Positions 35,263 to 47,087 of a stretch of DNA of 55,951 nucleotides are shown in pieces. The stretch is from Planctomycetota bacterium (lineage in GTDB: Bacteria; Planctomycetota; Planctomycetia; Planctomycetales; Planctomycetaceae): assembly GCA_003670925.1 (NCBI GenBank), contig QWQG01000073.1, forward strand, positions 1 through 55,951, in the 5' to 3' direction. Each line of letters begins with the position of its first letter. Position 1 is the first letter of the stretch. A program made the translations under genes and the position numbers. Below the pieces are notes generated by a model, which did no database searches, was not told the origin of the DNA, and was given only the letters and a program-made list of their open reading frames with translations.

Positions 35263-35393
35263 TCACTGTCGACACCGCGAAATGGGGTTAAATCTGGAGG
35301 CCTACCCAAAATTAGATTTTGACAAGATCGTGGTTGTTACTGATCTCGACGACGAGGCGGCCGCAGTTTGACACACAAGTTGGAAACGAAGTT

Positions 35394-37880
35394 GTGCGAA
35401 GTTTTTTTTACGTCCCGGTGATCTTGCTGCTGCATTCTCTATTCGTTGCTGAAACGTGGGTACGGGCGGATGAAGCGCGCGAAAATTTCGGAAACAACGT
35501 CTTTCCATTGCTTGCAGCAAAATGCATCTCCTGCCATGGTCCTGAAAAGCAGGAGGGAGGTTTGCGGCTAGACAGCGCGGCAATGGTTGCGCAAGGTGGT
35601 GAACGAGGTGCGGCGGTGGTCCCGGGAGATGTCGACCGCAGTCTGCTTGTAAAAGCCATTACGTTTCTTGACCCTGATTTGCAGATGCCTCCGAAACAGA
35701 AGTTGTCTGACGGCGAAATCAGCATCCTCACGGAGTGGGTCCGGTCCGATGCGGTATGGTTCGACTTAGCGGCAGAAACGGACCATCCCGCCGACGATGG
35801 GCGCGTCATCGGCGATGCATTCACGGACGAACGCAATCCTGTGCGGCGAATTTTTGGAGGCGCGCGACTGGACCTCTGGTCACTCCAAAAACCGGTCGCC
35901 GCCGCACGGCCGACGGAATTCGCACATCTGCATCCGATCGATTCGTTTGTGAGTGAGCGACTCCAGAATGTAGGTTTGGAATTATCTCCGGAGGCCGATC
36001 GCCGAACGCTGATTCGCCGCTTGACGCTCGATTTGACGGGCTTGCCGCCAACATCTGATGAGCTCGCGGCCTTTGTCGATGACCGCTCACCGGACGCGTA
36101 CGAGACGCTTGTCGATCGCTTACTTTCGTCGCCGCACTATGGTGAACGGCAGGCACGTCTTTGGCTGGACGTCGTGCGATACGCTGACACGAACGGTTAT
36201 GAACGCGATGAGTTCCGCCCGCGCGCATGGCAGTATCGCGACTACGTGATCCGGGCCTTCAACCAAGACAAGCCGTTCGACCAATTTATCCGCGAGCAAA
36301 TTGCTGGCGACGAGCTTGTCGCTGGCGTTCCGGAAAATTCAGCAGACGCCGACATGCTCTTGGCGACTGGTTTTCTGCGACTCGGCCAATGGGATAGCAC
36401 CGCCCCAATCTTTCAAGAAGAAGATCGCCTCCGTGCTGAAATGATGTCCGATCTGACCAATACGACGGCCGCCGCGTTTTTGGGGTTGACGATGTCGTGT
36501 TGTCAATGTCATGACCATAAGTACGATCCGCTGCTGCAAGCTGACCACTATCGCCTCCGCGCGTTCTTCGCTGGTGTCACGCCCCGCGATGATCTGCCGA
36601 TTTCACGCGCCGACGAACAAGCAGAAATCGACAGTCATAATGCCGAAGTCGATCGGCGAATCACCTCACTGAACTCGGAACTTGAATCTATCGATCGCCA
36701 CCAATCTGAAGCGGCGCAACGGGTTGAGGAACTGACGGCGAAGGTCTCAGAAGCCGAAGGTACGAAACGCTCGCCCGCAATGGCCATGGCTGCCACCGAT
36801 TCTGGTCCAACAGCACCCGCAACTCATGTGCTGTATCAGGGTGATGTTTCTTCGCCCCGTGAAGAAGTTGCGCCGGGATTTGTGTCACTTTTTACGCCCA
36901 GCCCGGCAGAAATCGATCCGCCTCGGGAGACCACCACCGGGCGTCGTCAGGCGTTAGCGAACTGGATCGCATCAGCGGAAAATCCATGGACGGCGCGCGT
37001 CATCGTGAATCGCATCTGGCAACAGCACTTTGGGACGGGACTGGTCGCGACGCCGAACGATTTCGGTTACAGCGGCGAGCGTCCTACACATCCTGAATTG
37101 CTCGACTGGCTGGCTGTGGAATTCATGCAACGTGGCTGGTCAATCAAAGACTTGCATCGATTGATTGTGACGTCAGACACTTGGCGGCAACGCAGTTTCA
37201 GCGAGTTTTCAGCGGTAGAACTCTCAATCCGCCACCAACTCTACGGCGTGCAGAGTGTCCGCAGGCTCGATGCGGAAACTCTGAGAGATAGTTTGCTGGC
37301 TGTGTCTGGATTATTAAAGTCGCATGAGGCAGGTAAGCCTGTCTGGCCTCCGATGGACGACGAACTGCTGCACGCTCAACCCGCTGTGCTTGAAGCCATT
37401 GAAGGAAAAGACGAGGGGCGGATGCAGGGCTGGTATCCGGATGCGCTTGAAGCGACAGACGTCCGGAGCGTGTTTCTTGTGCGCAAGCGATGTTTGCCAA
37501 TTCCATTTCTACAGGCATTTGACTTGCCTGAAACAATAGTCTCTTGCGCGCGACGTGATACGACTGTCGTCGCCCCGCAGGCATTGATGTTGCTCAACAG
37601 TCCAGATAGTATTCGCTACGCGGAGGCTCTGGCAGCCCGAGTTCAGGGTGAGCAAATCTTAGCATTGGACGACACGGCAAGTACCACAAGACTTGTGGAG
37701 ACGCTGTTCTCCACGGCATTAAATCGCATTTCAACGACTGCCGAACTTCAGTTGTCGATCGAGTTCTTGCAGCGGCATCAGGTCACACATCAGGACGCCG
37801 GAGTGGAGGCTGGTCGTCTCGCTCTAGTAGATCTCTGCCGAGCGATCTTAAATCTAAACGAGTTCGCGTACATCGATTAG
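35394..37880 (+). CDS. Planctomycete PSD1 cytochrome-like / DUF1549 / DUF1553 protein
   Basis: Exported multi-domain protein that planctomycetes pair with a DUF1501 gene; its chemistry is unknown. The start is set at GTG 35394, which gives a signal peptide (VRSFFYVPVILLLHSLFVAETW); a longer frame begins at TTG 35319. The PSD1 heme motif CISCHG comes right after the leader, within AAKCISCHGPEKQEGGLRLD. DUF1549 follows (HPIDSFVSERL, LTLDLTGLPPT, PHYGERQARLWLDVVRYADTNG), with a second CxxCH (CCQCHDHKYDP). A short coiled coil at about residues 420-465 links to DUF1553 (VIVNRIWQQHFG, APQALMLLNSP). The product has 828 residues. The DUF1501 gene begins 15 bases downstream. Confidence 0.9.
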   Translation: MRSFFYVPVILLLHSLFVAETWVRADEARENFGNNVFPLLAAKCISCHGPEKQEGGLRLDSAAMVAQGGERGAAVVPGDVDRSLLVKAITFLDPDLQMPPKQKLSDGEISILTEWVRSDAVWFDLAAETDHPADDGRVIGDAFTDERNPVRRIFGGARLDLWSLQKPVAAARPTEFAHLHPIDSFVSERLQNVGLELSPEADRRTLIRRLTLDLTGLPPTSDELAAFVDDRSPDAYETLVDRLLSSPHYGERQARLWLDVVRYADTNGYERDEFRPRAWQYRDYVIRAFNQDKPFDQFIREQIAGDELVAGVPENSADADMLLATGFLRLGQWDSTAPIFQEEDRLRAEMMSDLTNTTAAAFLGLTMSCCQCHDHKYDPLLQADHYRLRAFFAGVTPRDDLPISRADEQAEIDSHNAEVDRRITSLNSELESIDRHQSEAAQRVEELTAKVSEAEGTKRSPAMAMAATDSGPTAPATHVLYQGDVSSPREEVAPGFVSLFTPSPAEIDPPRETTTGRRQALANWIASAENPWTARVIVNRIWQQHFGTGLVATPNDFGYSGERPTHPELLDWLAVEFMQRGWSIKDLHRLIVTSDTWRQRSFSEFSAVELSIRHQLYGVQSVRRLDAETLRDSLLAVSGLLKSHEAGKPVWPPMDDELLHAQPAVLEAIEGKDEGRMQGWYPDALEATDVRSVFLVRKRCLPIPFLQAFDLPETIVSCARRDTTVVAPQALMLLNSPDSIRYAEALAARVQGEQILALDDTASTTRLVETLFSTALNRISTTAELQLSIEFLQRHQVTHQDAGVEAGRLALVDLCRAILNLNEFAYID

Positions 37881-37894
37881 CAAATCTCTGAACT

Positions 37895-39355
37895 ATGACA
37901 CCAGACTCCAACATGACCCCCGAACTGCGGCGCACATTTCTGACACAGACCGGCGCTGGTTTCGCCAGCGTCGCTCTGACCGCTCTCGTGGCAGATTCAC
38001 TGCGGGCTGAATCAAAAAAACCGGAGACAATGGATCCGTTGCAGCCATTAGCCGAACGTGTTTCACATTTTGCACCGAAGGCAAATCGCGTCATTTTTCT
38101 GTTTCAATACGGCGGCCCCGCAACTTTTGATCTCCTAGACTATAAGCCGGACTTGATCAGACTTCACGGCCAACCTGTGCCCGCATCTCTGCGCACGAAT
38201 CCAGACAAAGTTGGCGGCGTCTTCGAGCACTGCAAGGACGAACTGATGGCAGGGCCGTGGAGGTGGTCGCGGTACGGCCAAAGTGGACAGTGGGTGTCTG
38301 AATTACTTCCGCACACAGCACAGCACATCGATGAACTTTGCCAAGTCCGGTCGATGTACAGTGACAGCTCGAATCACGCACCGGCGACTTATCTGATGAA
38401 TACCGGGGCGATCCTGGGTGGCAAGCCGAGTCTGGGTTCATGGGTCACGTATGGACTGGGTTCGCTTAATCAGAATTTGCCGGGATTTGTGTTGCTCTAC
38501 AAAGTGGGTGGCCTTGGAGGTTCAGCCAACTGGAGCAATGCATTTCTGCCCGCCGCCTTTCAGGGGACGCAATTCCGGCATGAAGGTTCCCCCGTGCTCA
38601 ACCTGCAACCACCGCAGGAACTTGCCGGCGTCCAACGCTCGACGCTAGATTTTGCCCAAGCACTAAACCGAAAACATGCTGCGAAGCGTCCGGGTGTGCT
38701 CGATCTTGAGGGACGGATTGCGTCGTATGAACTCGCATACCGCATGCAGTCAGAAGCATTAGATATCGGCGAACTGTCGCTGGAGACAAAGGAGACGCAA
38801 GATGCCTATGGGCTGCACGATGACAACAAGGACAAAGCGTCTTTCGGGCGGATGTGCCTGTTGTCACGACGCCTTGTAGAAAAGGGAGTGCGATTCGTGC
38901 AACTTTACAACGCCGTCGACAAACTGGGCTGGGACGGCCACGACAACAACACGGACTACAATACCCGCAACGCTGCCCAGACTGACCAACCCATCGCGGC
39001 TCTCCTAGCTGATTTGAAACAGCGTGGAATGCTGGACACCACCCTCGTGATCTGGGCCGGAGAATTCGGGCGCACGCCGATGATGCAGGGCAACGGTGGT
39101 CGAAACCATAACCCTTACGGATTCACGATCTGGCTGGCTGGCGGTGGCGTCAAACCAGGGTCCGTGATTGGCGCGACCGATGAAATTGGCCTACGTGCGG
39201 TCGAACAAGTACAGCCTGTGAAAAATCTGCACGCCACGATTCTCACTGCGCTGGGACTGAATCCTGATGAGTTGTTCTCAGAGCATAACGGCCGGCAGGA
39301 ACGATTAACGGGCGTCGCAAAAAGCTGGGAAACGATCCCCGGGGTATTTGGATAA
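37895..39355 (+). CDS. DUF1501 protein paired with the PSD1 protein
   Basis: Third DUF1501 product. The leader LRRTFLTQTGAGFASVALTALV is Tat-like, with ATG at 37895 or 37913. Signatures are NRVIFLFQYGGPATFDLLDYKPDL, GVRFVQLYNAVDKLGWDGHD, LVIWAGEFGRTPMMQGNGGRNHNPYGFTIWLAGGGVKPG and a closing LNPDELFSEHNGRQERLTG. Length is 486 residues. The 14-base gap from the PSD1 gene indicates one transcript, and the conserved pairing suggests the two act together in the periplasm. It converges with the ABC permease gene. Confidence 0.92.
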   Translation: MTPDSNMTPELRRTFLTQTGAGFASVALTALVADSLRAESKKPETMDPLQPLAERVSHFAPKANRVIFLFQYGGPATFDLLDYKPDLIRLHGQPVPASLRTNPDKVGGVFEHCKDELMAGPWRWSRYGQSGQWVSELLPHTAQHIDELCQVRSMYSDSSNHAPATYLMNTGAILGGKPSLGSWVTYGLGSLNQNLPGFVLLYKVGGLGGSANWSNAFLPAAFQGTQFRHEGSPVLNLQPPQELAGVQRSTLDFAQALNRKHAAKRPGVLDLEGRIASYELAYRMQSEALDIGELSLETKETQDAYGLHDDNKDKASFGRMCLLSRRLVEKGVRFVQLYNAVDKLGWDGHDNNTDYNTRNAAQTDQPIAALLADLKQRGMLDTTLVIWAGEFGRTPMMQGNGGRNHNPYGFTIWLAGGGVKPGSVIGATDEIGLRAVEQVQPVKNLHATILTALGLNPDELFSEHNGRQERLTGVAKSWETIPGVFG

Positions 39356-39371: not shown

Positions 39372-40715
39372 CTATTCGTGGCGCAAGGCTTCGATGGGGT
39401 CCATACTGGCCGCCGCGCGAGCGGGATAGAGGCCAAAGATGACTCCAATCCCGACGGAGATCCCGAACGCCAAGGGCAGGCTGCTCCAGACGATCTGTGG
39501 TTTCAGACTCAGGAACATCGTGCCGACTTCGGACGTCGCCTGACCGCCCTCTAACATAAATTCTTGAGCCAGCCACTTAATGCCCTCAAAGGCCACTGGA
39601 GTCAGCAATCCTAGGACAACGCCGATAAGGCCACCGCTTCCGGCCAAGACCATGGTCTCGGTGAGGAACTGCGCCGTGATATCGCTCTGCTTCGCTCCAA
39701 GTGCCCGGCGAATGCCGATTTCACGAGTGCGTTCTGTCACGGTCGCGAGCATGATGTTCATGATGCCGATGCCCCCCACCATCAGACTGATGGCTGCAAT
39801 CGATCCAAGTACGACGTTGAAAATGACCTTGATCTGCTCGGCTTGTTTGAGCAATTCCTGAGGCACAACCACGCTGTATTGGTTCGCGTCCTTGTGATTC
39901 TTGGCAAGGCTCTCGCGAATGACTGCGGCTGTAGGCACCACCTGATCCTTATCGCTGATCCGGAGCGTGATCTGATTTAACTGAACTTCTTCAGCGCTGA
40001 ATGAGCCGGTGCGGCGATCAACGTCGAGATCACCCATCCGCACACGCATGGTTTCGAGCGGAATATAAATGTCATTGTTGTAGTCCTGCCCGGACATACT
40101 GCCACCAATCGCAGCACTGGCTTCTCGTGCTTCCGTGACCCCGACAATCATGTAGCGTCGATCCGCAATTTTGACTGTTTTTCCGAGCGGATCTTCGTAC
40201 TGAAACAACGCTTGCGCCGAACCCGCGCCAAGCACTGCGATATTATCTTTGGTGCGGCGGTCTTCGTCAGTAATGAATCGCCCCTGAGCCATATTCAAAT
40301 GATTGACGTCGCGATAGTCCGGAGTACAGCCGACGATCCGGCAATTCAACTCGCGATGCAGATAACGGCAAGGCTTAGTCAATTCTCGAATCGGAATTGC
40401 CTGCTCCACAGTCGGAATTGTGCGAGACAGCAGATCGTAGTCAGCACGCAAGAGGCCATAACGCAGCACAAAAGATCCTGGTGCCTGACTGCCGGCGGTT
40501 TCACGCGGCGGTTTCACGCTGCGGACGATGATGTTCGTGGCTCCAAGTTTCAGCACCTGCTCCTGAGCCTGCTGGCTGGCCCCCTCACCGATTGCGAGCA
40601 TCGCGATGACCGAGAAAACCCCAAACACGATTCCGAGCATCGTGAGACCCGACCGCAGCTTGTGCAGCATCAGGCTTTTCAATGCCAGTTCGATGGTGCG
40701 GAGAAGATTCATCAT
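39372..40715 (-). CDS. MacB-like ABC transporter permease
   Basis: Inner-membrane permease of a type VII (MacB/LolE-like) ABC system, which works as a mechanotransmitter rather than a classical pump. The opening [36 protein letters not shown] holds the first membrane helix; a large periplasmic domain (residues about 45-290) follows, then three helices ([63 protein letters not shown]). The ending [16 protein letters not shown] is the family's. At 447 residues it is complete. It is the last gene of the efflux operon, after the ATPase gene with a 102-base gap. Confidence 0.93.
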
Positions 40716-40817
40716 GGGACGAGTTTTACTTTGCAGAGATGCATGCTCAAGCGGTCAGTGTCTCTTGATCAAATTGAATTTTGAAATCGCCGGTGACGGA
40801 GCTGTCGAGTTACAGAC

Positions 40818-41516
40818 TTACCCTGGAAAAATTCCTTCACCGGCAACAACACCGTCACGCATAAAGATTCGCCGCTTGGCCAGTTTGGCGACATTTGGTT
40901 CGTGCGTCACCATAATAATGGTGCGGCCTTCGCGATTGAGGTTCAGCAACATCTCCATGATCTCATGTTCGGTCTTCGAGTCCAGATTTCCGGTTGGCTC
41001 GTCAGCCAAAATGATTTCAGGGTTATTCACCAGCGCACGTGCAATCGCGACACGCTGCTGCTGACCTCCGGACAACTGAAAAGGGCGATGATCCATGCGA
41101 TCACCAAGACCGACCATTTCAGCGAGATGTTCAATCCACTTTTTTTCTTTGGTTCCGATCGAAGGATATCTAGCCCGATAGTGCAGCGGAACTTCGATGT
41201 TCTCCAGCACAGTATACTGTGGAATCAGATTGTATGACTGAAAAATAAAGCCGATCATCTCGTTTCGGATCGACGACAATTGATCGTCGGAAAGGACAGA
41301 CACGTCCTTTCCGCCGATAATGTATTTCCCGTATGTCGGACGATCGAGAGCTCCCAACAAATTTAAGAGCGTACTTTTTCCACTCCCCGACGACCCCATG
41401 ATAGCCACGAAATCTCCTTTCGGGAAATCAATCGTGACGCCACGCAAAGCCTCAACGGTCACAGTTCCCAGCAGGAAGTGTTTCTTCAGATCTAGGACTT
41501 GAGCAGCCAGTTCCAT
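40818..41516 (-). CDS. MacB/LolD-like ABC transporter ATPase
   Basis: Cytoplasmic ATPase that drives the MacB-like permease. Walker A is GSSGSGKST near residues 41-49, the signature is LSGGQQQR, Walker B is IILADEP, followed by TGNLDSKT and the H-loop VTHEP. At 232 residues it is a stand-alone ATPase, whereas in E. coli MacB it is fused to the permease. The ATG is at 41516. It lies 177 bases downstream of the adaptor gene, a gap containing a degraded palindrome. Confidence 0.96.
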   Translation of the reverse strand: MELAAQVLDLKKHFLLGTVTVEALRGVTIDFPKGDFVAIMGSSGSGKSTLLNLLGALDRPTYGKYIIGGKDVSVLSDDQLSSIRNEMIGFIFQSYNLIPQYTVLENIEVPLHYRARYPSIGTKEKKWIEHLAEMVGLGDRMDHRPFQLSGGQQQRVAIARALVNNPEIILADEPTGNLDSKTEHEIMEMLLNLNREGRTIIMVTHEPNVAKLAKRRIFMRDGVVAGEGIFPG

Positions 41517-41601
41517 TTGAAATTTTCTACGATGCGATGCCTTTTAGAGTGCGGCGACTTGTCGCCGCTTTTATCTTGCAGCGTCTCGGGCGTTCAACAC
41601 G

Positions 41602-41665
41602 GTAGCTGAATTCGCAAGAATTCAGCCCTCTTGCTTGAACAACTGAAATCTTGCAAATCAGCGAC
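41602..41665. repeat. Dispersed palindrome, degraded copy 2
   Basis: Bases 41602-41625 match the left arm at 33795-33818 at 23 of 24 positions, and 41643-41665 is a degenerate right arm. The left arm is itself self-complementary (CTGAATTC-GCAA-GAATTCAG). It sits inside the efflux operon between the adaptor and the ATPase genes and could fold in the mRNA there. Confidence 0.7.
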
Positions 41666-41693
41666 AACCTTGATCAATCTCGCTGCCGCTCGC

Positions 41694-43796
41694 CTAAGGA
41701 CCTTTGCCCTTGCCCTGACCACGCTGCTGAAATGCTTCCTGCATTTCTTCCAGTGTGATCTTTCCGTCGCCGTTCTTGTCACTGCGATCAAAGTATTCAG
41801 GGCGCGGATGTTCTTCCTTTGTGACGCCGCCGTCCTTGTTTTTGTCCATGCTCTCGAACATTGTTTTTGGATCCGGCATTCCGCCTGGAGGACCACCACC
41901 ACCCGGAGGACCACCGCCACTGGGAGGACCACCACCACCGGGAGGACCACCACCACCGGGAGGACGACCGCCACCTGGAGGACCACCGCCACCTGGAGGA
42001 CCACCACCACCACCGGGCTTTTGTCCCGGGGTGTCATGCTTTTCGCGATTTGCTTCGACTTCAGCAGACAGTTTGGCTTCAAGCCCACTCAGTTCTTTCG
42101 AAAAGTGCGTGCGAGGATTCATAATGACAAACTCACCCTCAGCCACGCCATCCAGAATTTCCATGTATTCGTCATTCGTATCACCGATCGTCAGTTCTCG
42201 GCGTTCCGTTTCGCTACCAATGGCGACGTACGTAAAGTAATGCCCGGACGTTGAGATGACCGCCTGAATTGGGATCTGCAGGACCGGCTCTTTACGATCC
42301 TCAACGATGATCCGGCATTCTGCGTTCATGCCTGGTTTGAGCATCCGCACGCGTGCCATGTCATCTTTAATCTCAATCGCCGTTTCGTATTCTTTAAGAT
42401 CGGTATTGGGCCAGCTGCCCGGCGTGGGCACCGAGGCCACGGTTGCCAGCATGCCGCGATAAGGTTGCCCGGGGAGAGCATCGATTTCGATCTCTACGGG
42501 TTGTCCCACCACGATGCGGCTGATTTTTGATTCGTGAATACGGGCATCGATCTTCATATTTTCGACGTCCGGAAGATTGATAATAGCCTGTCGTTCCCGC
42601 ACGGAGGCTCCTTCTTCGATGACGACGGGCTCACTGCCGCGTGAGCTGCCCTGTGAAGCATACACCACTTCGCCCGCCTGCGGTGCCACGAGGCGGCAAG
42701 CCAGAATCTGCCGCTTAAACATATCCCACTTATCCATCTCGACACTGGAAGTCAGTTGAGCTGCCACCAGTTCTGCTCGTAACTCAGTCATGATGGCTTC
42801 GCCTTCTTTTCCCGCCCGAATAGTTTCCTGTTTGGAATCGTCGGCGGCCTGTGTCAACTCGATCATCTTCCGCTCGCGCATGAAATCTTGCAGCACCTTG
42901 AGCTTGCCCTTATTCACGCCCAAAACAATGAGTGAATTTGTGACTTTCAGCCGCTCAGTTTCCAATTCATTGACATTGCTGTAACCAAGCCGCGCCTGAC
43001 TACGGATTTTGTCGTATTTTTCCATGTTCATCGACAACTCTTCTTCGGTCTTCTTCAGATCACCTTGAATCGTAGCGACTTCCTGATCGTATTCTCCGCC
43101 CGGTGCCTTGTATTTGATTAAGTCTAAGTCGGCGAGTTTTTCAAGGGATTTCGCTGTTCCCACGGCACTCGAATTTGTCGTCTCTTGGATCTCGATATCG
43201 ATGGCCGATTTTTCCTCCAACGCTTTCGCTTTCGTGACTTTAATCTGCTGCTCTTTTTCCTTTTCCACAAGGGTTGAGGAATCCAGTTCGCAGACGACAT
43301 CGCCCGAGATAAAGTCCTGACGCCGAACCACCTGTCCATCCGTCACAAGAATTTCTGAAAACTCACCGAGCGTGATTTCATAAATTTTTTCCTTGCCGTC
43401 TTCCCCACGCAACTTGATGGTCTTAGCGGATTCCGATGCCGCATCCATGAACTCCACGACGCCCTCGAATTCGGCCACGTTGGGGGCATTGACGCGACTG
43501 CCTTCCGGCACGAGCATAATAATGGTCGTGCTGCCCTCCACGCGGTTACTCAGGACAGAATTCTTCATGCTGTCCACCGTGCCGTTTTCGGTGATCATGA
43601 TTCTGAAGGGCGATTTTTCGGCCTTCTTCAGAATATACTGCGAGTTCAGCGTCGGCTTGTTCATACCCATCGCAGACATTAACTTGTTGCGAGAATATGG
43701 CACCAGATAAGCCGTGACTGCAGCGCCTATTGTTAGCAGTAACAGGACAATAATCGGGGACTTGCCCGAACGAGTTCGCGGGAATGAGCGGAGCAT
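41694..43796 (-). CDS. HlyD/MacA-type periplasmic adaptor with Gly-Pro tether and two C-terminal EF-hands
   Basis: Membrane-fusion protein expected to bridge the permease and the outer-membrane protein. An N-terminal anchor (SPIIVLLLLTIGAAVTAYLV) precedes a split lipoyl/barrel region and a long alpha-helical hairpin (about residues 175-365), then barrel and membrane-proximal domains (GMNAECRIIVEDRKEPVLQIPIQAV, GVAEGEFVIMNP). Unusually, residues 594-639 are a tandem (PPGGGG)n tether, and the last 60 residues hold two canonical EF-hand loops, DKNKDGGVTKEE at 651-662 and DKNGDGKITLEE at 673-684, ending in a short basic tail. MacA relatives of about 370-450 residues lack these additions. The ATG has AGG just upstream. 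It begins 17 bases after the TolC-like stop. Confidence 0.92.
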   Translation of the reverse strand: MLRSFPRTRSGKSPIIVLLLLTIGAAVTAYLVPYSRNKLMSAMGMNKPTLNSQYILKKAEKSPFRIMITENGTVDSMKNSVLSNRVEGSTTIIMLVPEGSRVNAPNVAEFEGVVEFMDAASESAKTIKLRGEDGKEKIYEITLGEFSEILVTDGQVVRRQDFISGDVVCELDSSTLVEKEKEQQIKVTKAKALEEKSAIDIEIQETTNSSAVGTAKSLEKLADLDLIKYKAPGGEYDQEVATIQGDLKKTEEELSMNMEKYDKIRSQARLGYSNVNELETERLKVTNSLIVLGVNKGKLKVLQDFMRERKMIELTQAADDSKQETIRAGKEGEAIMTELRAELVAAQLTSSVEMDKWDMFKRQILACRLVAPQAGEVVYASQGSSRGSEPVVIEEGASVRERQAIINLPDVENMKIDARIHESKISRIVVGQPVEIEIDALPGQPYRGMLATVASVPTPGSWPNTDLKEYETAIEIKDDMARVRMLKPGMNAECRIIVEDRKEPVLQIPIQAVISTSGHYFTYVAIGSETERRELTIGDTNDEYMEILDGVAEGEFVIMNPRTHFSKELSGLEAKLSAEVEANREKHDTPGQKPGGGGGPPGGGGPPGGGRPPGGGGPPGGGGPPSGGGPPGGGGPPGGMPDPKTMFESMDKNKDGGVTKEEHPRPEYFDRSDKNGDGKITLEEMQEAFQQRGQGKGKGP
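41880..42017 (-). repeat. 18-base-period tandem repeat encoding the (PPGGGG)n tether
   Basis: About seven and a half in-frame units encode the Pro-Gly hexapeptide at adaptor residues 594-639, with two conservative variants (PPGGGR, PPSGGG). Synonymous differences between units show it is not a recent expansion or an assembly artefact. Period and repeat make it prone to length change. Confidence 0.85.
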
Positions 43797-43813
43797 CCTC
43801 AGAGACCTTACTT

Positions 43814-46567
43814 CTAGTTCTGTGGTTGCGAATTGGGAAGAACAACACCGGGAGTCATGGCAGGAGGGACAATTTCATTGTCCTGCAAATTGTTCATCTG
43901 CAGGTAAAACGGATCGTCCCAGACTCCGCGAGGATCAAGCTGCATGATACCCATGTTTACAAAGATGTTAAGCCTATTTGTCTCATAAGTGATCCAATCG
44001 CCCACCAGTGCGTTTTGAGCATTGAGAAGGGTGGAGAGAGCGTTCAGCACGCTCAGGGCATTGCCTTGTTGGGTTGCGGTGGCCTGTAACGACGCACTAT
44101 CGTACTGTAACGCTGCGTTTCTGACTGCCGTCCTGTCGATTTCCAGACGCACCTCTTGGACTTTCAACTGACGCCAGTTTTGGCGAATATTGAGCGTAAT
44201 CGTGTCCTCAGACAACATATAACTTCTGCGCTGACGCTGATATGCGATCAATGACGTGCGGTAGGCGTTTCGCTCGTCAATCTGATCCAAGGGCGTGGTA
44301 AATGCCACACTGGCCGAGTTCGTAGGGCTACCGGCATTGTTTCCCAAGCCTTGCTTGCCTTGGAACGAGAGATTGAGCGTCGATTCTAGGGCATTGGCCG
44401 TAATTTCCATCTGTCTCCGTGAATCCATCACTTGAGCCCGGTTGTTCATCAGGTCCAGACGATTATCAAATCCGATTTCGACGACCTGCTCAATTTCAGG
44501 AAACTCCTGCGATTCAGACAGCGTGAATCGATTGAGGGCGATCGCTTCCACCCGCAGGCCTGCCTGCAGAACTTCCAGCTGCTGTGCCAAACGCAACATA
44601 TAGTCGTCCCGCAGGATGCGGGATGCATCGCGGACTTCTGACAGCAATGTCTCGACCGTGTAGGTCTCCGCTGCCGTCTTTGTGCCTGAACGTGGCAGTT
44701 CAATCCAGGCATCTGGCAATTCCGCCCGGGCGATCATGCCACTGGAATCCTTGTCCAGCTTGCTCAAGATGCCGTCCAGTGTCTCCACATCGAGGAGTTG
44801 CACTAGCATCTCCATTTGCTCCGATCCAAAGATGAAGTCCGCCTCTGTTTGTCTGAACTTAGCCTGGTCTTTCCCGAAATTCTCCACAAGTCGAATTCGC
44901 TCGTCTTCACTGCGAAAGAAGCGTTGACCGGGAAGACTGGCTTCCCAATCATCCTGCGTGGAGTCGAGCAGTTCTTGGACGGGTTTAAAGTCGTTCTTCA
45001 CGACATTGATGCCAATTGCACGCAGTTCGTTTCGCAGTTCAGCGAGTCCATTCACGTAACTTTTCAGCGATGCGAAGTCCGGCGGTGCATCGGCTTGATC
45101 TTCGCCAAGATCCGGCAGTAGTTCCTTCCCGAGTTCTTTCTGAATGACGCGAATTCTTCGTTCAAGATCGATCAAATCCCAGCTGATGATTTCAAAGGGA
45201 ACCAGTCCACTCTCGTCAATGTCAAGCTGAATATTTGGCGGCAGACCGAGGAGAATCTTCAAGGCGTCCTGCTGATCCGCCAATTCTCGTTGTTGGGCGA
45301 CAAGCGCTGCTTGAGCGTTCTGCAGAGTCCCCAACAACTGGTAGGACGAAAGCCCAGTCGCATCCTGCTTTTTCCAGCCAATCAGCTGTTGGATGGCTGT
45401 GCGATAGCCTTCATCCTCGGAAAGACTGAGCAGCCTCTGCTCATCTTCTGCCGTCATCGGCCCAGTCCACTCCATCCACAAGCCGTCATATTTAAAATGC
45501 ACTTTCAAGTCGTCCGGAATCACGATCAACTCAAGGAAATTTTCAAGCTTTTCGTGGACAACACCGGCGATGTAAGAGTCAATCGCTTTTTGCTTCTCGT
45601 ACTGTTCCTCCAATTGCCGGATATTGTTCATCTGGTTCAGGATGGTCTGTTTTTGCTGCAATACCAGCAAGTAACCTCGCGCCACTGACACGAACAGCGT
45701 TTGCCGAAATCTGGCCACTGTCCGCGCGCTGTAGAGCACGCTGCGTTCCGCCTGAGTCAGCGGCTCAAGAGCAACTTTACGACCCGCCTTAAATAATAAC
45801 GGCTGAGTCACACTATATCCGAGCAAGGGCGCCGAGTGACTTGTGTTCGAACCAAAATTCCATGTGACCGTATTCGCAAGTTCCACCGCCAATTGCCCAC
45901 CAGCAGGCAGTAACTGACTGACTCCAAACGTCTGTGTCGAAGCTCCAGTCGAGCCAGGTCGCGAGAGTGGCGCAAAGACCGTCGCTCCTGGTTCGGCTCC
46001 GGTCAGTCCCAGAAAGCGAACTCCCAACGCATAGCGTTGCTGCGTCAACGCCAAGGCATTGATGTACAAGTCCTCTAGGTTGTTCTGGTAATCACGATTG
46101 TGAATGTATGTCAGATCAACCAACTCCGGCAGCGTGACCTTCAGTAACTTGACCTCAGAGTGTCCTTCCACCGGATCCGTGCCATTCATCTCAATGCCAT
46201 ACTTCTCCAGCCACGTGGGATTTTCGATGGCAAATGCCGTTCCCAGCTTGTGCCAATTCTTATATCCCCTTCGTCCATTCACGCTATGCATGAAAACGTG
46301 CGCCGCAGGGTCGTCTGGAGGCAGTGGCTCTTTGTCCGGATCGTACGGATCATAAAACCGACTCCGCTGATCGGGCGTCAAATCGATGCGCGGAAGTTCC
46401 CAACGCGTGTCATTGAGCTTCTGGCCAATATCGTTATACGAATCTGTGTCAGCCTGCTTCCGCCAAAATTGCCGCGAGCAGCCAGCCAGCGATGAGATTC
46501 CCATCGCCCCCAGAATTAGCCATGTCACGCCTTGGCGTTTTTTACCTTGGATTGATCGCGCCAGCAT
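43814..46567 (-). CDS. TolC-like outer-membrane efflux lipoprotein with an EF-hand insert
   Basis: Outer-membrane channel of the tripartite system. The start is the ATG at 46567, behind GCAGG, giving a lipoprotein signal with lipobox SSLAGC; a TTG at 46582 is in frame but weaker. Two TolC-family repeats are visible: LPELVDLTYIHNRDYQNNLEDLYINALALTQQR in the first, and VEIGFDNRLDLMNNRAQVMDSRRQ, the usual opening, in the second. Between them is a region of about 300 residues not found in ordinary TolC, containing an LLGLPPN segment, and at residues 605-616 a canonical EF-hand loop DKDSSGMIARAE. At 917 residues it is about twice the normal length. It is the first gene of the operon. Confidence 0.9.
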   Translation of the reverse strand: MLARSIQGKKRQGVTWLILGAMGISSLAGCSRQFWRKQADTDSYNDIGQKLNDTRWELPRIDLTPDQRSRFYDPYDPDKEPLPPDDPAAHVFMHSVNGRRGYKNWHKLGTAFAIENPTWLEKYGIEMNGTDPVEGHSEVKLLKVTLPELVDLTYIHNRDYQNNLEDLYINALALTQQRYALGVRFLGLTGAEPGATVFAPLSRPGSTGASTQTFGVSQLLPAGGQLAVELANTVTWNFGSNTSHSAPLLGYSVTQPLLFKAGRKVALEPLTQAERSVLYSARTVARFRQTLFVSVARGYLLVLQQKQTILNQMNNIRQLEEQYEKQKAIDSYIAGVVHEKLENFLELIVIPDDLKVHFKYDGLWMEWTGPMTAEDEQRLLSLSEDEGYRTAIQQLIGWKKQDATGLSSYQLLGTLQNAQAALVAQQRELADQQDALKILLGLPPNIQLDIDESGLVPFEIISWDLIDLERRIRVIQKELGKELLPDLGEDQADAPPDFASLKSYVNGLAELRNELRAIGINVVKNDFKPVQELLDSTQDDWEASLPGQRFFRSEDERIRLVENFGKDQAKFRQTEADFIFGSEQMEMLVQLLDVETLDGILSKLDKDSSGMIARAELPDAWIELPRSGTKTAAETYTVETLLSEVRDASRILRDDYMLRLAQQLEVLQAGLRVEAIALNRFTLSESQEFPEIEQVVEIGFDNRLDLMNNRAQVMDSRRQMEITANALESTLNLSFQGKQGLGNNAGSPTNSASVAFTTPLDQIDERNAYRTSLIAYQRQRRSYMLSEDTITLNIRQNWRQLKVQEVRLEIDRTAVRNAALQYDSASLQATATQQGNALSVLNALSTLLNAQNALVGDWITYETNRLNIFVNMGIMQLDPRGVWDDPFYLQMNNLQDNEIVPPAMTPGVVLPNSQPQN

Positions 46568-47087
46568 CCTGCTGCTCTCCAAAATCCTGTCGCTGCTCTC
46601 GCTCGGGCCAATTCGGGAATGCTTTGGTCAGATTTTTTGAGGCCAATCTTCGCAAAGCCCTTGAACTTAGACCTCTGATGCCACCCCGAAGCCGGTTAGG
46701 CTCCAAGATTGCAAAATGCCGTCGCTGACGGTTTGAATCAGAAATCACAAGTTGCCGAGAGAATGTCTTGTAGGGATATTGCTGATTTCGACGATTACAG
46801 GCTCTGGACTTGATCAGATGACCACTCCCACCATCACGATCGGCAAAATCACTACATTCAGCACGCCTAAACCGCTACAATTCATCCAGCCAACACATCT
46901 GATTCATGCACCGCAAACGCCTCATATTAACCCGTCGCATCGCCGTTGAACGAGTCAGCGCAAGGGGAAAACAGATGCGACGGTACCAGTTCCGAAAGGG
47001 TGTGGTCGCGGACGATTCGCGCCAGCGAGGCAGGCCACTACACTGCTAAAAATTGGGGAATAGATCGGGCAAAGAGGAGCTCAGCAC
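46568..47087. other. 520-base divergent intergenic region
   Basis: Lies between the efflux operon and recJ and so contains promoters in both directions. No gene, tRNA or strong repeat was recognised; short open frames on both strands look random. Confidence 0.4.

Follow-up and report, generated by a model that had tools for sequence, protein, structure and literature searches.

The window analysed here is a stretch of 55,951 nucleotides, contig QWQG01000073.1 of a Planctomycetota bacterium (assembly GCA_003670925.1). Between positions 39,372 and 46,567 the open reading frame (ORF) coordinates define four adjoining minus-strand genes, which encode a TolC-like channel, a periplasmic adaptor, an ATP-binding cassette (ABC) ATPase and a MacB-like permease. 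The adaptor ends in a pair of EF-hand loops, and the channel carries another EF-hand loop in an insert between its two TolC repeats. The genes are as follows.

43814..46567, minus strand: TolC-like outer-membrane protein and predicted lipoprotein, 917 residues (start codon ATG at 46567; a TTG at 46582 opens the longest ORF)
41694..43796, minus strand: MacA/HlyD-type periplasmic adaptor, 700 residues (Pfam HlyD_D23 3e-7, over cut-off)
40818..41516, minus strand: ABC ATPase, 232 residues, like MacB, LolD and DarD (Pfam ABC_tran 6e-34)
39372..40715, minus strand: MacB-like permease, 447 residues, encoded separately from the ATPase (MacB_PCD 5e-40 and FtsX 6e-18, over cut-off)

The operon is a predicted MacAB-TolC-like (type VII ABC) tripartite exporter of the MacAB-TolC/LolCDE group. 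HlyD_D23 and fold matches classified the adaptor as MacA-like. The channel was placed in the TolC family by Pfam OEP (1e-5, over cut-off) and by fold matches of low TM-score. The permease is of the MacB type, with a periplasmic core domain and an FtsX-like C-terminus identified using Pfam. The ATPase was assigned to the MacB/LolD group by ABC_tran and by its nearest NCBIfam models, DarD (5e-71), MacB (6e-69) and LolD (3e-66), each of which remained below its own cut-off. The NCBIfam MacB model also matched the C-terminal part of the permease (1e-51, below cut-off). MacB proper was ruled out, since the ATPase and permease are two genes that score 175.9 and 233 bits against an equivalog cut-off of 966. 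An earlier note, made from the sequence of this DNA, had named MacB/LolD-type ATPase and permease genes as completing the operon, which the Pfam and NCBIfam models bear out. Like MacA-MacB-TolC of E. coli, the system combines a MacB_PCD/FtsX permease, a LolD/MacB-like ATPase, an adaptor of MacA-like fold and a TolC-family channel. It differs in that the ATPase and permease are separate genes below the MacB equivalog cut-off, in that the 700-residue adaptor has a Gly/Pro tether and an EF-hand pair, and in that the 917-residue channel has helical inserts and an EF-hand module.

The adaptor and the channel were modelled with AlphaFold2, using an alignment of 38 adaptors for the one and of 34 channels for the other. 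The adaptor contains these features.

42699..43277, minus strand: long alpha-helical hairpin (residues 174-366, AlphaFold2)
41883..42029, minus strand: disordered Gly/Pro tether (residues 590-638; predicted local distance difference test score, pLDDT, below 50 over nearly the whole length)
41712..41876, minus strand: EF-hand pair domain (residues 641-695, Pfam; pLDDT 89-92 over 641-690)
41811..41846, minus strand: EF-hand loop 1, DKNKDGGVTKEE (residues 651-662)
41745..41780, minus strand: EF-hand loop 2, DKNGDGKITLEE (residues 673-684)

The best PDB fold matches of the adaptor were the MacAB-TolC chains 9qgy_G (3e-18) and 5nik_D (2e-16), which we take to be MacA from their length, followed by MacA 4dk0 (1e-14). 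TM-scores by target were 0.61-0.65 and the root-mean-square deviations were large. The adaptor tail matched EF-hand_1 (7.3e-9), EF-hand_5 (8.4e-9) and EF-hand_6 (9.1e-8), all above the curated cut-offs, and 0/20000 shuffles of the adaptor sequence contained two strict loops. The model shows the tail as a compact EF-hand pair with three helices: one before the first loop, a short one shared between the two loops and one after the second. Position 8 is a strand residue in both loops. Its paired 12-residue loops have D at position 1, D/N at 3, D at 5, G at 6, a hydrophobic residue at 8 and E at 12, with helices on their flanks. A sequence search with the C-terminal 61 residues of the adaptor returned no solved relatives at E<=0.1. 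The claim of the earlier note that the adaptor ends in two canonical EF-hand loops on a Gly/Pro tether thus holds by profile, by shuffling and by model (pLDDT ~90).

Conservation of the tail was examined in 114 non-redundant adaptors gathered by their likeness to the window adaptor. Of these, 69 carry the tail, 37 do not, and 8 are cut off and unscorable; these counts rest on a regular expression demanding most ligand positions. An EF-hand pair was readable in 68/69 tailed homologues. Position 12 is E in 67/68 first loops and 68/68 second loops, with a search pattern that admitted only E/D/Q/N there. D651, D655, G656, E662, D673, D677, G678 and E684 are invariant or almost so in the 38-row adaptor alignment, 37 rows of which had been selected as tailed. 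At least one Pfam EF-hand model scored above cut-off in 10/10 further tailed adaptors picked across the tree. The ratio of non-synonymous to synonymous change (pN/pS) in four comparisons inside the group closest to the window (window, L098, L099 and L039) was 0.17-0.26 for the tail, 0.27-0.60 for the tether and 0.13-0.17 for the core.

The TolC-like channel contains the following features.

44543..45181, minus strand: helical insert between the two TolC repeats (residues 463-675; AlphaFold2 helices 463-478, 498-536, 554-591 and 638-675)
44612..44794, minus strand: EF-hand module (residues 592-652) between helices 554-591 and 638-675 (block pLDDT 77-86 over 591-640)
44720..44755, minus strand: EF-hand loop, DKDSSGMIARAE (residues 605-616), ligand-competent at positions 1, 3, 5 and 12 in 28/28 clade members
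44648..44683, minus strand: possible degenerate second EF-hand loop (residues 629-640), 24 residues past the first

Fold matches of the channel were to the TolC family, with E-values from 6.5e-7 (1ek9_A, for example, at 4.4e-6) and TM-scores by target of only 0.33-0.38 for the best. The mean pLDDT of the model was 70, with 249 residues below 50. The channel is predicted to be a lipoprotein because G29-C30 of its LAGC motif is invariant in 34/34 aligned TolC-like proteins; lipidation would fit this pattern. Judging by topology, the helical insert probably sits at or around the equatorial domain.

Taken alone the channel loop is weak, since the window protein had no Pfam EF-hand match at E<=1 and a strict loop arose in 168/20000 shuffles of its sequence. 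Its conservation makes it real. In 28/28 members of the clade that carries it, the loop has D at position 1, D/N/S at 3, N/D/S at 5, I/L/V at 8 and E at 12. G at position 6 is kept in 23/28, and positions 2, 7 and 10 are the most variable (2.7-2.9 bits). The model adds flanking helices at 597-604 and 619-623. A strict loop was found in 0/76 TolC ORFs outside the clade, some of which are partial or doubtful, and the Gimesia-type homologues have an alignment gap where the module would stand. Pfam EF-hand models matched 6/10 relatives at E<=1, all of them below cut-off and the strongest at 5.9e-4. A profile of the 68 adaptor pairs matched 27/28 clade channels and 0/76 others at E<=1, the best at 2.9e-6. 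The window channel itself scored E 0.017. Among 1040 shuffles the lowest E-value was 0.037, and six clade members scored worse than this.

These profile matches span the first channel loop and generally leave the second uncovered. The putative second loop has Y/L/M/I at position 8 in 26/28 members and E/Q at position 12 in 22/28, and strand residues are modelled at 612-613 and 635-636. The channel module may therefore be an EF-hand pair in which the first loop is intact and the second (residues 629-640) has decayed. In seven pairs pN/pS of this region was 0.07-0.51, similar to the remainder of the protein, with many pS values high. The third loop that the earlier note placed in the insert between the TolC repeats is thus upheld by its conservation and by a model that sets it at a hairpin tip. 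Absence of the loops, or loss of their ligand positions, in orthologous operons had been proposed as grounds for rejecting the EF-hands; both are conserved. Of the Pfam matches the note had called for, EF-hand in the adaptor, HlyD_D23 and OEP were recovered over cut-off; the channel loop went unmatched in the window and dockerin was absent.

The two modules are distributed differently. Record titles place the adaptor tail in Planctomycetales and Pirellulales, with Blastopirellula marina DSM 3645 (L171) among its carriers. It was found in 0/22 fetched adaptors from other planctomycete classes, in which 92 genomes matched, and 2/22 of these adaptors run off the end of the locus. At least 11 changes of tail state were counted on the adaptor tree, a quick tree made without a mixture model and with a long-branch warning. 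The channel module is confined to one clade of 27 tree rows that includes Fuerstiella and the window. The loop was scored in 25 of these rows; L116, with Q instead of G at position 6, is wrongly scored as lacking it, and the L039 contig has no TolC gene. The 27 adaptors comprise 22 with tails, three that are cut off, L118, which the tree scores as tail-less although a run of N hides the tail, and L120. At L120 the channel loop is kept and the adaptor is tail-less, its stop codon overlapping the start of the ATPase gene. Conversely, 47/69 tails lie outside the clade, and in the 41 of these loci where a TolC ORF was seen the loop was present in 0/41. Since L120 and the 41 checked loci show either module without the other, coupling is not obligatory and the EF-hands of adaptor and channel are separate acquisitions, the channel loop having been gained once. 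The start-to-start spacing of the adaptor loops is 22-23 residues in 22/22 members of the channel-loop clade and 24-25 in 46/46 others. This difference counts as one coincidence in favour of coupling, and may be a single evolutionary event.

An Isosphaeraceae-type clade (17 tree rows) has a Gly/Pro-rich adaptor tail with an unrelated module of ~40 residues, helical to the eye. A pattern composed after viewing these tails matched 14/17 clade rows and 0/97 elsewhere. Of the three clade rows that it did not match, L088 and L164 carry the module by eye. Pfam gave no family above cut-off for the module in 4 proteins, and one weak match to Nif11 (E 0.068). That this sister clade has a non-EF module in the same place suggests a tethered site for docking that takes different modules, and speaks against calcium sensing as the essential task of the tail. 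The matching adaptors are those of L080, L083, L084, L086, L149, L155, L156, L157, L161, L162, L168, L173, L174 and L175.

A MarR-like gene lies directly upstream of the TolC gene on the same strand in 28/84 loci with room for one, and also at L146, which has less room. As a single phmmer seed was used, this count is a lower bound. MarR Pfam models scored over cut-off in 6/6 upstream genes tested. MarR genes often control the efflux of toxic small molecules, and this role together with the linkage suggests that the machine is an efflux pump for small toxic compounds. The MarR-linked operons belong to Gimesia, Planctomicrobium and relatives (L052, L063, L131 and 26 other loci).

The reading we favour, at a probability of roughly 0.45, is that the EF-hands are calcium-stabilised docking modules on a MacAB-TolC-like efflux pump and not a switch. 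The pump would consist of an ATPase and a MacB-like permease, two separate proteins at the inner membrane, together with the MacA-like adaptor and the oversized lipoprotein TolC. The EF-hand pair at the adaptor C-terminus, held on its flexible Gly/Pro tether, would be loaded with calcium in the periplasm. Each loaded pair would be a folded docking knob, presumably several per pump, and the knobs would help to fix the pump to a periplasmic partner, either a pump part or a component of the cell envelope. In the Fuerstiella-like clade, including the window, the TolC-like channel has acquired a second EF-hand module, modelled at the end of a helical hairpin that probably juts out from the equatorial region; contact of TolC with peptidoglycan or a partner lipoprotein is proposed for this spot.

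Docking is a sensible role for the channel module because the equatorial domain of TolC is proposed to interact with peptidoglycan and the E. coli lipoprotein YbjP binds nearby (PMC13082787). YbjP is likewise an accessory element near the equatorial domain. It differs in being a separate lipoprotein with a DUF3828 domain (PMC13082787); the element found here is part of the channel itself. Bacterial periplasmic EF-hand proteins are already represented by EfhP of Pseudomonas aeruginosa (PMC9132961) and by a calcium-binding protein of Caulobacter (PMC13171946). Those proteins stand alone, whereas the EF-hands here are fused to transporter parts. The open-access literature searched held no recognisable account of EF-hands in such adaptors or channels, which is no proof of their absence elsewhere. 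MacAB-TolC-type pumps are models of drug efflux, and how the envelope anchors them is under active study (the YbjP papers date from 2026). Planctomycetes have built conserved EF-hands into two of the four pump parts, at different places, and the system offers a ready experiment on calcium versus accessory docking as the control of a tripartite exporter.

Periplasmic calcium might instead load and unload the EF-hands as its level changes and so gate the activity of the pump or, as the earlier note suggested, its assembly. The canonical ligands in both adaptor and channel loops would suit such a switch, as would the presence of EF-hands on two parts of one machine within the channel-loop clade, where the adaptor loop spacing differs exactly in the clade that gained the channel loop. 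We consider it unlikely. The calcium dissociation constant of EfhP is 13.7 uM, and the same paper says that periplasmic calcium mirrors or exceeds the outside level (PMC9132961); a micromolar site would then always be full at environmental calcium, making constant loading likelier than switching. L120 keeps the channel loop without the adaptor tail, the sister clade has a non-EF module in that tail, and the spacing difference, if one event, is one coincidence. A broader form, in which the EF-hands of adaptor and channel jointly let envelope calcium control assembly or opening of the exporter and the tail is a swappable socket for an accessory domain (the EF-hand pair or an undescribed helical module, depending on the lineage), seems equally doubtful to us. 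A somewhat less unlikely alternative is generic decoration: a Gly/Pro tether with an EF-hand pair may be a generic module, common in exported planctomycete proteins, that became fused to the pump with only a stabilising role. EF-hand_5 matches 6 times in the source genome, twice in further Gly/Pro-rich proteins, and there are 1 to 20 matches in each of 59 genomes searched. Against this, tailed adaptors retain the ligands across Planctomycetales and Pirellulales, Blastopirellula marina included, and tail pN/pS is mostly low, both of which suggest selection; the tail modules also sort by clade.

The earlier note had also proposed that the EF-hands dock a dockerin-like, calcium-binding cargo; the pump would then capture it for secretion. 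The long flexible tether would suit capture, and tripartite ABC exporters are able to move proteins. This proposal fared badly and we regard it as very improbable: no dockerin family was found in the adaptor or the TolC-like protein at E<=1 in Pfam, the loops have flanking helices and E rather than D at position 12 in EF-hand fashion, and no conserved cargo gene occurs in the clustered flanks, although cargo could be encoded elsewhere. That the loops are chance matches without calcium function is barely credible, in spite of the 168/20000 shuffles and the silence of Pfam on the window channel. The ligand positions are conserved in 28/28 clade channels, Pfam EF-hand models exceed cut-off in 10/10 tailed adaptors tested, and both modules have EF-hand-like AlphaFold2 models. 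The note had argued that motifs in two subunits of one machine speak against chance. The argument is weakened by the single gain of the channel loop, the tail-less adaptor of L120 and the separate histories.

Several observations weigh against docking modules on an efflux pump. The tail is missing from 37/106 scorable adaptors, 3 of them at loci with neither ATPase nor permease; pumping in general therefore does not require it. A search of 26 fetched window-clade loci, 19 of which have upstream room, found no MarR homologue. Across nine pairs the tail pN/pS was 0.09-0.49 and exceeded that of the tether in two; the top value of 0.49 rests on very few changes, and one pair had no change at all. 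The two Gly/Pro-rich proteins of the source genome, L179 (G000:C182) and L180 (G000:C91), also join long Gly/Pro-rich stretches to EF-hand loops.

Genes next to the operon were clustered over short flanks. MarR formed the widest cluster with 27 loci (26 upstream, 1 downstream), followed by an apparent sulfatase at 11 loci, a further set at 9, what looks like an ABC binding protein at 7 window-clade loci, and then smaller sets; names other than MarR are from reading protein starts by eye. A cargo gene beside the operon was looked for in these flanks, and no conserved candidate emerged. In the window, recJ is the divergent upstream neighbour of the operon. Adjoining the permease end, the plus strand at 35319-39355 encodes a CxxCH-motif protein and a second protein, for which no link to the pump was seen. 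By eye, we take this pair to be planctomycete proteins of the cytochrome/DUF1549 type and the DUF1501 type.

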